In this document: positions 52,309 through 55,648 of the stretch, in pieces
Layout: every line of letters starts with the position of its first letter
Position numbering within the stretch: the first letter of the stretch is position 1
Assembly: GCA_026708325.1 (NCBI GenBank)
Contig: JAPOVC010000010.1
Span: 1 to 64,000, forward strand
DNA from: Anaerolineaceae bacterium
Lineage (GTDB): Bacteria > Chloroflexota > Anaerolineae > Aggregatilineales > Phototrophicaceae
Reading direction: 5' to 3'
Length of the DNA stretch: 64,000 nt
The notes under the pieces: model-generated
What the model saw: only the letters and a program-made list of their open reading frames with translations
The model's database searches: none
What the model was told of the DNA's origin: nothing
Program-made: the position numbers and the translations under genes

Positions 52309-52773
52309 ATGCAGATGGCTGCGTGGTGGGGAACGCGCGCGAAAGTGTCGGCGCGCCTGCAACTGGAAGTGGCCGCCATGCGCGATACTTTTCGCGACAC
52401 CTTTCGTCTGATCGTGGCCAAAGGCGACAGGCTTTACTGGGCTGGTGAGGTCGATCTGAACCTCGCCGGCATCCCGCAGCGCAGGCATACCCTGCACATT
52501 GTCTACCCCACCAGCTATCCCTCGCGCGCTGCCGAAGCCTACGTGCGTGACCCCGAAATCGTCAGCCGCAAGCACCAGTTTGAAGATGGCCAGCTTTGTC
52601 TCTTCAATCCCCGTGACGGCAAGCGCTATGGCTGGAACCCGGGTCGCTCCACGGCCGTGACGGTGGCCGGCTGGGCCGTTCAGTGGCTCTACGCCTACTA
52701 CACCTGGAAGGCCACCGGCAACTGGCCTGGCCTGGAAGAGCGCATTCAGAACAATGGCAGGTCCCGTCCCTGA
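52309..52773 (+). CDS. E2 ubiquitin-conjugating-like protein
   Basis: 154 residues. The bacterial E2 pattern is visible: WAGEVDLNLAGIP, HTLHIVYPTSYPSRAAEAYV, KHQFEDGQLCLFNP with candidate catalytic C97, and STAVTVAGWAVQWLYAYYTW ending in GNWPG. It would accept a modifier from the E1 as a thioester. GGGAG lies upstream; ATG 52315 is an alternative start. A TACAAT box is at 52283-52288. Stop and next start overlap as TGATG. First gene of the E2-JAB-E1 operon. Confidence 0.8.
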   Translation: MQMAAWWGTRAKVSARLQLEVAAMRDTFRDTFRLIVAKGDRLYWAGEVDLNLAGIPQRRHTLHIVYPTSYPSRAAEAYVRDPEIVSRKHQFEDGQLCLFNPRDGKRYGWNPGRSTAVTVAGWAVQWLYAYYTWKATGNWPGLEERIQNNGRSRP

Positions 52774-53822
52774 TGGCCGGCATGTCGCCACCGGAGACGA
52801 CGATTCTGCCCAACCTCGTTGTTGCGCAGCGAGTGCTGGACAAGATGGCCGAGGCCGCCCGCGCCTGGCAGGCGGACGAAACCGGTGAGGCCCTGGTCGG
52901 CCTGGTGGAGCCCGGCCTGCATACCAACGGCGTGCCCGGCATCTACCTGCTTGACACGATCGCGCCGGATGAGAGCGCGCTGCGCGACGCGCATACCTTT
53001 CAGCAGGGGGACCCGCACCAGGACGAACTGCTCTGGTGGTTGCAGGAGAACTGGCGAGCGCGTCGGCTGCGCGGCGATCTGCCGCCCAAATGGGACGTGC
53101 CCCTGCGCTATCTGGGCGACTGGCACAAACAGCCCGGCGGGATGACCCGTCCCAGCATTGGCGACCTGCGCACGGCCAGGGCCTGGCTGCGCGACGCCGA
53201 CAACGGCATGGATTTCCTGCTGGCGCCCATCGTCACCTCCTGCCTGCCTGACCCCGGCCCCGCCCCCAACCGCATCCGCGTGGACGGACAGACCCGCGTC
53301 GATTTCTGGTATCTGCAGCGCCGGCAGCGCGACTTCAACAGCATTCCGGCGGCGGTGTATCAGGACGGACAATTGCCGCGGCTCGGCGCCGGCCCCTGGC
53401 ATTTGCGAAATCCGCAGCGACTGGACCATGAATTAGATCGCCTGCTGGAAGCCGGCTTCGTCCCGTCTCCGCTCGTCTTTCTGGACTTGCTGGACCACAG
53501 CCAACTGGACGTCTGTTTCCTGCTCGGCAGACCCGGTGCGGAACAGCTCTTTCTCGTCGCCACCCCGCCGGACTACCCTGCGCATGCCGCGGAATTCCGG
53601 ACGACCGCCTACATGGACCTGGACGACGAAAGCGCCTTGCACGATCGCTTCCTGCAGCGTTGGCGCGACGCGCAACCCCTGGTCCTCACTTCAGACGGCT
53701 CCCAGGCCGGGGATCGCCTCCTGGCCGGCCAAATAGAGGAGCTGGAGCGTTCTGCCAATCTGGGCACAGTGCCGGTCGCGACGCCACCGGGAGCCGGCCC
53801 ACCGTACCGGAGCGCCAGGTGA
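52773..53822 (+). CDS. JAB/MPN-domain protein (JAMM motif altered)
   Basis: 349 residues. An N-terminal JAB/MPN domain: ETGEALVGLVEP (Glu at 36-39), then YLGDWHKQPGGMTRPSIGD with H118, Q120, S128 and D131. The JAMM metalloprotease motif is H-x-H then S-x-x-D; here the second His is Gln. In bacterial E1/E2 systems JAB proteins remove or mature the modifier. The C-terminal ~180 residues form a second uncharacterised domain with DFWYLQRRQRDFNS. Coupled at both ends (TGATG and GTGA). Confidence 0.78.
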   Translation: MAGMSPPETTILPNLVVAQRVLDKMAEAARAWQADETGEALVGLVEPGLHTNGVPGIYLLDTIAPDESALRDAHTFQQGDPHQDELLWWLQENWRARRLRGDLPPKWDVPLRYLGDWHKQPGGMTRPSIGDLRTARAWLRDADNGMDFLLAPIVTSCLPDPGPAPNRIRVDGQTRVDFWYLQRRQRDFNSIPAAVYQDGQLPRLGAGPWHLRNPQRLDHELDRLLEAGFVPSPLVFLDLLDHSQLDVCFLLGRPGAEQLFLVATPPDYPAHAAEFRTTAYMDLDDESALHDRFLQRWRDAQPLVLTSDGSQAGDRLLAGQIEELERSANLGTVPVATPPGAGPPYRSAR

Positions 53823-54727
53823 CCGACTGGTCGCGCGTCAGCAATTTGCTGGGCGACGAGGGCATGGCGCTCCTTGCGCGACGACGCGTCGCCATCGTCG
53901 GTCTTGGTTCCGGCGGCGGCGCGGCGGCGCTTTTCCTGGCGATGAGCGGCGTGCAGCGCTTCGTTCTGGTGGACGATGACCGTCTTGAGGAAGGCAACCT
54001 GCTGCGGCACGTCGCGGACCGTCGCTATCTCGGTCAGGCGAAGGTGTCGGCTGTCGCCGATCTGCTGCGACAGCGCAATCCGCAGGTGCGGGTCGAAACC
54101 CTGGAGGGCCGCATTGAGCAGCATCCCGAAGCCCTGGACGACGTCGACCTGCTGGTGGTGGCCGTGGACAACGAACCGGCGCGACATGCGCTCAACGAGG
54201 CGGCGCTGGCACGCGGGTTGACCGCCGTTTACGCGGGGGTCTACGAACGCGCCGTGGGCGGGGACGTGGCCCTGCTGCGCGCCGGGGTCGGGGCCTGTTA
54301 CGCCTGCTGGGCGGCGGAACTGCGCGATGAGGAAGCGCCGCAGGACCAGCCGGACTACGGTATGCTGGGCCCGGAGGGCACCCTGGCGGCGGAACCCGGG
54401 CTTTGGCTGCACGTGACGCGGGTGGCCGCCGCGCAGGCCCAGCTGGCCCTGAATGAATTGCTGCGCGGCAGCCCGGCGTACGAACAATTGCCCGGCAACA
54501 CGGTCCTGCTGGCCAATCGCGGGCTGGAGATCATCGAGGGACAGTTGACCTTGCCGCAAGGCGCCATCTGGGCCACCATCGAGCGCAAACCGGACTGTCT
54601 CGTCTGCGGCCCGGCTTTCCGCGACCAAACGGCCGCGCAGTCACAGGATGGCGCGCAGGACCTGTCGCTGGTTGCACTGCTGAACGATCCCCCCGACAGG
54701 ATGCAGGTTGAAGGGAACGAGGAGTGA
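53819..54727 (+). CDS. E1-like ThiF-family adenylyltransferase
   Basis: 302 residues from GTG 53819. Rossmann ATP site VAIVGLGSGGGAAALF, DDDRLEEGNLLRHV with the conserved D, N and R63, and K75 in GQAKV. Two CxxC pairs, CYAC near 160-163 and CLVC near 260-263, form the zinc site typical of MoeB/ThiF/E1; one Cys in CYACW may also act catalytically. It would activate the C-terminus of a modifier and pass it to the E2. Overlaps the JAB stop by 4 bp. Confidence 0.88.
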   Translation: MTDWSRVSNLLGDEGMALLARRRVAIVGLGSGGGAAALFLAMSGVQRFVLVDDDRLEEGNLLRHVADRRYLGQAKVSAVADLLRQRNPQVRVETLEGRIEQHPEALDDVDLLVVAVDNEPARHALNEAALARGLTAVYAGVYERAVGGDVALLRAGVGACYACWAAELRDEEAPQDQPDYGMLGPEGTLAAEPGLWLHVTRVAAAQAQLALNELLRGSPAYEQLPGNTVLLANRGLEIIEGQLTLPQGAIWATIERKPDCLVCGPAFRDQTAAQSQDGAQDLSLVALLNDPPDRMQVEGNEE

Positions 54728-54732
54728 AGGGA

Positions 54733-54996
54733 ATGGATGACAGACCTTCCCCGGAACATGACGACCTGGAGGAGCGCCGCGAACGCCTGACTGAACAGCC
54801 GGCGCCGGAAGACGTCGAAAAGGCGCGCAATCTGGGTGGTGAGCCCGCGCCGGCCGTGACCCCGGAGGAGTTCGCGCGCCTGCAGGATGCCGGCCAGGTA
54901 CACATCGACGCCCGGGGACGGGTGCGCACTGCCCGCCGCAGCGACGCCGAAGCCGGGGTTTCGCTGCGCAAGCGACGCGCCTGGTATGGTGGCTGA
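54733..54996 (+). CDS. Small charged protein ending in Gly-Gly, candidate modifier
   Basis: 87 residues ending ...RRAWYGG. The N-terminal half is strongly charged and probably disordered (DDLEERRERLTEQPAPED); VTPEEFARLQDAGQVHID may form a helix and strand. It lies directly after the E1 gene and before a NUDIX gene, in the same operon. A free C-terminal Gly-Gly is the feature E1 enzymes activate. No beta-grasp fold is recognised, so Pup-like disorder is another option, and a non-modifier role remains possible. ATG 54733 has GAGGAG 8 nt upstream; GTG 54724 is the alternative. Confidence 0.6.
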   Translation: MDDRPSPEHDDLEERRERLTEQPAPEDVEKARNLGGEPAPAVTPEEFARLQDAGQVHIDARGRVRTARRSDAEAGVSLRKRRAWYGG

Positions 54997-55648
54997 GTCC
55001 CTGGCGGACGCTGACCTCGGCATAGAGCTCGTCACGGAAGCGCTGCGCCTGCCGCAATTCGATGCAGAGGCCGCCCGTGCTCCGATGCTGCCCGAAACAC
55101 GACGGTTGCATCCCCAGGTGTGCTGCGACGCCAGCGAGGCCGCCGTGCTGCTGCTGCTCTGGCCGCAGTGCGGGTCGCTGTATTTCGTGTTGACGCGCCG
55201 CGCCAGCGAACTGCGCGGTCACGGCGGGCAAATCAGCCTTCCGGGCGGCCGCTGCGAGCCTGGCGACAGCGACCACAGCGCCACGGCCCTGCGGGAAACC
55301 GAAGAGGAACTGGGCGTCCCGGCCAGCGACGTGCAGGTGCTCGGCCCTCTTGACAAAATCTACATTCCGCCCAGCAATTACCTTGTCTATCCCCTGGTCG
55401 CCGCTCTGCCTGCCCCGCCCCGCTTCCGGCCACGCGCCAGCGAGGTCGCCGAGGTGCTGCAAATTCCCCTGACATTTTTGCTTGACCCCCGGCGCAAGCG
55501 CGAGTCCCTGCAGCATCGTAACGGCCGCTCCCTGCGCATCCCCTGGTATGCCCTCGGCGGGCAAATGGTCTGGGGCGCCACCGCCATGCTGCTCAGCGAA
55601 TTCGAGGGGCGCCTGCGCGCCGTGTCGCAACGGCAAACCTGCCAGTAA
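54986..55648 (+). CDS. NUDIX CoA pyrophosphatase
   Basis: 220 residues. FVLTRRASELRGHGGQISLP precedes the Nudix box GGRCEPGDSDHSATALRETEEELGV. The LRxHxGQxSxPGG element upstream of the box marks the NudL/NUDT7 family, which cleaves coenzyme A to 4'-phosphopantetheine and 3',5'-ADP. The start overlaps the GG-ending small gene by 11 bp. Presence in the ubiquitin-like operon may be only positional. Confidence 0.9.
   Translation: MVAESLADADLGIELVTEALRLPQFDAEAARAPMLPETRRLHPQVCCDASEAAVLLLLWPQCGSLYFVLTRRASELRGHGGQISLPGGRCEPGDSDHSATALRETEEELGVPASDVQVLGPLDKIYIPPSNYLVYPLVAALPAPPRFRPRASEVAEVLQIPLTFLLDPRRKRESLQHRNGRSLRIPWYALGGQMVWGATAMLLSEFEGRLRAVSQRQTCQ

Follow-up and report, generated by a model that had tools for sequence, protein, structure and literature searches.

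What is the client of a bacterial E1-E2-JAB gene set when the small protein encoded beside it lacks a ubiquitin-like fold? The question is raised by a cassette in the 64,000-nucleotide stretch analysed here (the window), positions 1 to 64,000 of contig JAPOVC010000010.1 from an Anaerolineaceae bacterium, a member of the Chloroflexota with a 3.3 Mb genome. In this cassette genes for an E2-like conjugating enzyme, a JAB-domain protein and an E1/ThiF-like adenylating enzyme precede a gene for an 87-residue protein. The small protein is a core, obligatory component of the E1-E2-JAB system. We tentatively favor the view that the cassette performs conjugation, with the small protein as an E2-docking, non-beta-grasp tail that would be conjugated in the manner of the cyclic oligonucleotide-based anti-phage signaling system (CBASS). 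What the analysis shows is the genes, their obligatory association, the selection acting on the small protein, its fusion to E2 in one homolog, its predicted order on E2 and its variable C-terminal end.

We surveyed 154 genomes of the order, Aggregatilineales, in which presences are not phylogenetically independent. The small protein was found in 135 and E2 in 134, with both present in 129. Three families, with 12 genomes between them, lack both throughout, as do two incomplete genomes, which makes 14 genomes with neither. The small protein occurs without E2 in six genomes, all incomplete, and E2 without the small protein in five; in two of the latter E2 lies so close to the end of its contig that a small gene placed as in sister genomes would lie beyond it. 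The exceptions to co-presence are thus incomplete genomes or likely contig breaks. Among 61 relatives the small protein was found in 52 and E1 in 48. The related genes in named records are mostly from metagenome-assembled genomes (MAGs) of Anaerolineae, two of them Aggregatilineales. The usual linkage is E2-JAB-E1-small, followed by NUDIX with or without an intervening gene like protein-L-isoaspartate methyltransferase (PIMT), and since this gene order recurs across the order the E2-JAB-E1-small association is better than chance. The small gene is also kept where it is unlinked, lying about 150 kb from the cassette in genome G042 and 10-13 kb from it in G019 and G035, while in G008 gene and cassette are internal to different contigs. 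An earlier note, made from the window alone, had suggested that the small protein could be an unusual modifier of the system; its conservation across the order bears out that it is a true fourth component. The cassette is inherited vertically in the order, and retention this close to universal speaks for housekeeping and against a mobile defense island.

The genes and features of the cassette and the neighboring NUDIX gene, all on the forward strand, are:

52309-52773, forward: E2-like conjugating enzyme, ATG start, 154 aa (PADLOC E2, 2.5e-17)
52773-53822, forward: JAB-domain protein, ATG start, 349 aa (PADLOC JAB, 2.5e-7)
53819-54727, forward: E1/ThiF-like adenylating enzyme, GTG start, 302 aa (Pfam ThiF, 3.9e-32)
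54733-54996, forward: small tail protein, ATG start, 87 aa, C-terminal RAWYGG
54820-54987, forward: 56-residue conserved core of the small protein, from the alignment (mean column identity 83%)
54988-54993, forward: terminal Gly-Gly codons GGT GGC, not conserved, overlapped by the NUDIX gene starting with the ATG at 54986
54986-55648, forward: NUDIX hydrolase, CoA pyrophosphatase-like, ATG start (NCBIfam PRK10707, 1.9e-29, below cut-off)

The cassette also matches the PADLOC E1-E2 profile (8.9e-26). E2 and JAB overlap by 1 bp and JAB and E1 by 4 bp. The gap between E1 and the small gene is 5 bp, or a 4-bp overlap if the alternative GTG start at 54724 is used, and NUDIX overlaps the small gene by 11 bp. 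The genes agree with the earlier description of E2, JAB and E1 coupled by 1-4 bp overlaps and followed by an 87-residue gene ending in WYGG. In the range 52309-55648 given for this system the end coordinate belongs to the NUDIX gene. No family match to the small protein was found in Pfam, NCBIfam, PADLOC or PDB sequence searches. In 20 loci of 20 kb the conserved neighbors are PIMT-like, NUDIX, membrane and transport genes; CD-NTase and effector genes are not among them, which agrees with the claim that the cassette is distinct from CBASS. NUDIX is a frequent neighbor of the small gene (conserved neighbor cluster 3). The PIMT-like gene often stands between the small gene and NUDIX (54986-55648 in the window; loci L031-L049), and either NUDIX or the methyltransferase-like and NUDIX pair often accompanies a small gene that has left the E1 operon.

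The catalytic cysteine of E2, Cys97 in QLCLFNP (codon 52597-52599), is invariant in 18 members of the order and in a second operon type described below. The closest solved sequence is the CBASS CdnG-E2 (8hsb, 8.2e-8). Together with the invariant cysteine, the model of a homolog, which matches E2 and UEV structures with Z up to 10, points to an E2 of the UBC fold. In an alignment of 18 E1s the adenylation residues expected of a ThiF enzyme (GxGSGG, N60, R63, K75 and D117) are invariant. So are C160, C163, C260 and C263, the only invariant cysteines, which probably form a zinc site. The solved relatives MccB, UBA5 and MoeB are tied at about 1e-18 (MccB 8.6e-19). Judged by sequence, E1 and E2 look competent. 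The JAB protein retains the Glu, first His, Ser and Asp of its metal site, and its second metal His is replaced by Gln120 (GDWHKQP), so that the window has H-K-Q in place of the H-x-H of the JAB/JAMM site (E, H-x-H, D). Distinct JAB motifs are HKQ or HRQ in 45 of 60 and HKH in the other 15; HKH is kept by family f7, genome G013 and operons of the second type. In its C-terminal half JAB looks like an inactive E2/RWD domain: this half can be aligned to the N-terminal portion of the E2 profile (hhalign E 1.5e-4, probability 51%), and, as in RWD domains, the aligned stretch has nothing corresponding to the E2 Cys motif.

The small protein has a variable, acidic N-terminus followed by a near-invariant core containing a helix (TPEEFARLQ), a hairpin (QVHIDARGRVR) and a basic tail (SLRKRRAWY) with which it ends. 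Mean column identity in the core is 83%, compared with 73% for E2. When the window is compared with two sisters, the core has non-synonymous rates (dN) of 0 and 0.017 against synonymous rates (dS) of 0.26 and 0.44, and E1 has dN of 0.03 and 0.12 against dS of 0.20 and 0.51. Purifying selection is thus stronger on the 56-residue core than on E1, and the N-terminal tail is under loose constraint.

The C-terminal end behaves quite differently from the core. The earlier note had taken the terminal Gly-Gly as a meaningful feature and proposed its conservation among homologous operons as a test, which it fails. In a tail survey across the order just one of 74 distinct small proteins ends in GG. Gly directly follows W-Y in 20 of the 74, and the remaining ends vary. 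Beyond W-Y there are no residues in six, mostly 1-6 in the others, and two longer tails, a range of none to 22. Within one genus near-identical cores end in WY, WYVG, WYAEPQHD and WYASHRLS. GG is present in G000 and its sister G001, and is lacking in GR, the third genome of that genus, and in the other relatives read. The codons TAT GGT GGC TGA read Y-G-G-stop, and in the other frame ATG GTG GCT GA is the start of NUDIX. The terminal GG of the window is therefore dictated by the overlapping start codon, and the survey and the gene overlap together rule out a GG-ended modifier. In 39 of 65 tails the ATG of the next gene overlaps the Tyr codon of the small gene in this way. A bias towards Ala, Gly or Val after W-Tyr might have marked a protease site, but it is not counted as evidence because the overlapping ATG forces a codon starting with G in these tails.

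The small protein also departs from a beta-grasp ubiquitin-like protein (Ubl). A conserved C-terminal Gly or Gly-Gly is lacking among the 74 distinct homologs. The core measures ~45-56 aa, and the homologous module of a fused protein, L127, is modeled as one helix and short hairpin strands; the comparison of folds is made on this homolog, as modeling of the window's own small protein gave no confident result. The suggestion that the protein is possibly disordered fits its N-terminal tail; the near-invariant core, modeled as helix and hairpin in the fused homolog, is probably not disordered.

Weak E2 matches elsewhere in Chloroflexota led to the second operon type, in which a small counterpart of 54-103 aa lies directly before E2, always upstream. 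A whole-genome search with one of these small proteins found every copy adjoining E2. They end in KP[STQ]RWF, mostly exactly and with no residue beyond, and share the helix-hairpin part with the window protein (hhalign E 1.8e-4, probability 49%). Extending the search to 84,980 species genomes added MAGs labeled Cyanobacteria, Melainabacteria and Terriglobia. The second of these is probably mis-binned, since this 'Candidatus Melainabacteria' MAG and Chloroflexi bacterium 54-19 encode identical small and E2 proteins (L123 versus L124). In the Terriglobia MAG (L127, on a 264-kb contig) the small protein and E2 form one protein of 194 aa, whose junction, LKPQRWF-AWYESHRRR, falls exactly where, in the split form, the small gene stops and the E2 gene starts. 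The fusion is a single example, and no second fusion was found among the plasmids or phages searched. The second-type operons are large, built around small-E2-JAB-E1 (L065 2956-16717, reverse strand; L066 4727-13673, forward strand), with extra genes for several E2/RWD-like membrane proteins, JAB-TPR proteins, a HerA-like ATPase, a vWA protein and an SPFH/stomatin-like protein with an E2-like end. One second-type small gene (L091 1501-1698, reverse strand) has an in-frame TAG (MSNEAAKNARKSLEDLKR*LQTAQ...), either a sequencing error or decay.

An AlphaFold (AF2) model of the L127 fusion has a mean predicted local distance difference test (pLDDT) of 83.6, with 80-87 in the small module. The module is predicted as a helix and short hairpin on E2, with RWFAWYES as one helix reaching the first helix of E2, and the structural matches are E2 and UEV domains. 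In an AlphaFold model of an E1-small read-through chain from L112 the small part has pLDDT of 30-60. Because the module is ordered in the fusion and not in the E1-small chain, the models favor E2 rather than E1 as the binding partner, a comparison between different sequences with different alignment depths and made without predicted aligned errors.

In our tentatively preferred explanation the small protein is a stand-alone E2-docking tail, with an unstructured N-terminus, a helix and hairpin that would sit on E2, and a C-terminal peptide ending in W-Tyr (W-Phe in the second operon type). E1 would adenylate this tail, E2 would carry it on Cys97, and E2 would then pass it to a target; these steps, and the handling of residues behind W-Tyr, are inferred. 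No other client is encoded in the operon. The analogy is with type II CBASS, where E1 and E2 conjugate the cyclase through a C-terminal tail that is not a beta-grasp ubiquitin (PMC10097602, PMC11153139). In its favor, most of the nearest plasmid E2s read belong to CBASS and are encoded immediately after a cyclase, whose tail is similar in layout and end to the small protein, combining a hairpin-like segment with an aromatic-Gly end (THLFYGD, TNTFYGQ; ...SIFVSRTGNISG...KHRYFGG in L067).

Several points weigh against this. Since the residues after W-Tyr vary within one genus, the C-terminal carboxylate is at no fixed place, and in CBASS an end of Trp, Val, Ser or Arg abolished conjugation (PMC10097602). 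JAB, the obvious trimming enzyme, lacks one metal ligand in these lineages. Fusion to E2 deprives the module of a free C-terminus, barring cleavage, and the N-termini of E2 in L065, L109 and L120 carry a related motif internally (LRPMRWYAAWYD, LKPTRWYAAWHE and IRPSHWHNHTWY). The L112 read-through model gave no confident contact between E1 and the small part. Lastly, the likeness to cyclase tails is weak. Against the second-type profile only three of seven tails score above shuffled sequences (p about 0.01 or better), and the hhalign probability is 6%. These statistics are too weak to make the small protein a CD-NTase tail by homology, and the resemblance is suggestive only. In the boldest form of this explanation, which we consider rather unlikely, the small protein is a new kind of modifier: a short helix-hairpin tail with an aromatic W-Tyr or W-Phe end in place of a beta-grasp domain and glycine, activated by E1, carried by E2, used for housekeeping across the order, and of common origin with the CBASS cyclase tails. 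A short CBASS-like pair in Anaerolineae (L067 9564-11065, reverse strand, and L068) has a CD-NTase ending in KHRYFGG or KHRYFGR that overlaps a single E2.

Because the unfixed C-terminus, the damaged JAB and the internal E2 motif weigh against conjugation, our belief is split between a tail modifier and an E2 subunit. Almost as likely as the first reading is one in which the small protein attaches to E2 non-covalently, as a detachable N-terminal subunit, and the conjugated moiety is something else. The hairpin would bind E2 and the RW[FY] end would run on into the first helix of E2, positioning E2 towards E1 or targets. Variable tails would then be harmless. The L127 protein, joined at RWF | AWYE, the prediction of RWFAWYES as one helix, and the E2 N-termini that hold the motif without a free C-terminus all fit. 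Yet such a subunit would be more conserved than its enzyme, the operon would hold no client for E1, and small gene and E2 are not adjacent in most of the order.

It is less probable, and in our view unlikely, that one of two unlinked beta-grasp proteins of the ThiS/MoaD family is the modifier, with the small protein serving as adaptor or as dedicated target, for example through the invariant Lys in LRKRR. Two ThiS-family genes above the curated cut-off are present in the window's genome, but no such gene is linked in the order, and cofactor synthesis accounts for ThiS/MoaD proteins. Some second-type operons come with a YukD-like protein; in L105 (7489-8481, forward strand) and L107 its beta-grasp domain lies N-terminally in a protein of 330 aa, encoded two genes upstream of small-E2, scoring 23.2 bits in L105 against PF08817, below the cut-off of 27. 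YukD is absent from the window's genome, and we rejected it as a linked Ubl.

Very improbably, the small protein binds nucleic acid or is regulatory, with a helix-turn-helix-like basic Ala/Arg tail (VRTARRSDAEAGVSLRKRRAWY) and an operon link by co-regulation only: the tail is highly basic, and in the same order related peptides stand at the start of prophage structural proteins and ahead of a toxin domain, but the E2 fusion and the position upstream of every second-type E2 are left unexplained. The toxin is an RHS polymorphic toxin (L079 2938-4074, forward strand, genome G543) in which a complete copy of the module (...QLFSNNFQVDEAGRIRVGRGDQPDFGASLRRRRAWY) immediately precedes the C-terminal toxin-like domain, matching the small-protein profile at 5.9e-7. 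The prophage proteins, capsid-like or scaffold-like, begin R.ARR.NAEAA[IV]SL.KRR.W[FY], like the tail of the small protein, with modest significance (L198 1091-2077 and 2528-3241, both reverse strand, genome G025; L051 1716-2420, forward strand; L052 608-1297, reverse strand). Relatives of this capsid protein were not found in the viral contigs searched.

By the criteria we tested the system is a variant of the bacterial E1-E2-JAB systems, and is not a beta-grasp Ubl system, CBASS, Bil or Pup. Type II CBASS (Cap2 E1-E2 and Cap3 JAB, with E2-only variants accompanying CdnG) shares the E1, E2 and JAB chemistry and, if our proposal is correct, a conjugated moiety that is a non-beta-grasp protein tail. 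It differs in that our cassette has no cyclase or effector, unfused E1 and E2, vertical retention across an order, and a client no larger than a tail. The 6d and 6e operons of Iyer et al. 2006 (PMC1779556) likewise combine E1, E2, JAB and a small protein, and have inactive E2/RWD-like domains; the small proteins there are predicted to adopt the beta-grasp fold, and those of 6d have a conserved terminal Gly, neither of which applies here. Bil (BilABCD) has E1, E2, JAB and modifier in one operon, but BilA contains two ubiquitin-like domains, its C-terminal Gly is processed, and BilD is a two-part E1 (PMC11354881). In the window E1 is a single unit of 302 aa with one ThiF match, and the small protein has no ubiquitin-like match. 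MccB of microcin C7 is an E1-like enzyme acting on a short peptide, and is the best solved match of the window's E1 (8.6e-19, tied), but it makes an antibiotic peptide and has no E2 or JAB. Pup-type modifiers have a disordered N-terminus and a conserved C-terminal part and are not beta-grasp, all of which recalls the small protein. They differ in their Gly-Gly-Gln/Glu end, since no C-terminus in the tail survey is GGQ or GGE, and in using a PafA-type ligase instead of E1 and E2. We did not find a description of the cassette in the open-access literature searched; an earlier description of the second operon type is possible.

Most studied bacterial E1-E2-JAB sets are sporadic defense islands. 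Here such a set has become fixed in an order, and its obligatory partner is ultra-conserved and not a beta-grasp protein. Should the partner prove to be conjugated, a Gly (or Ala) end could no longer be taken as the rule for E1 clients, and the cellular use of such a bacterial system would become testable. If the partner is a split E2 subunit, it would be a new way of controlling an E2. Under either reading the natural small-E2 fusion provides a compact protein to express and solve.

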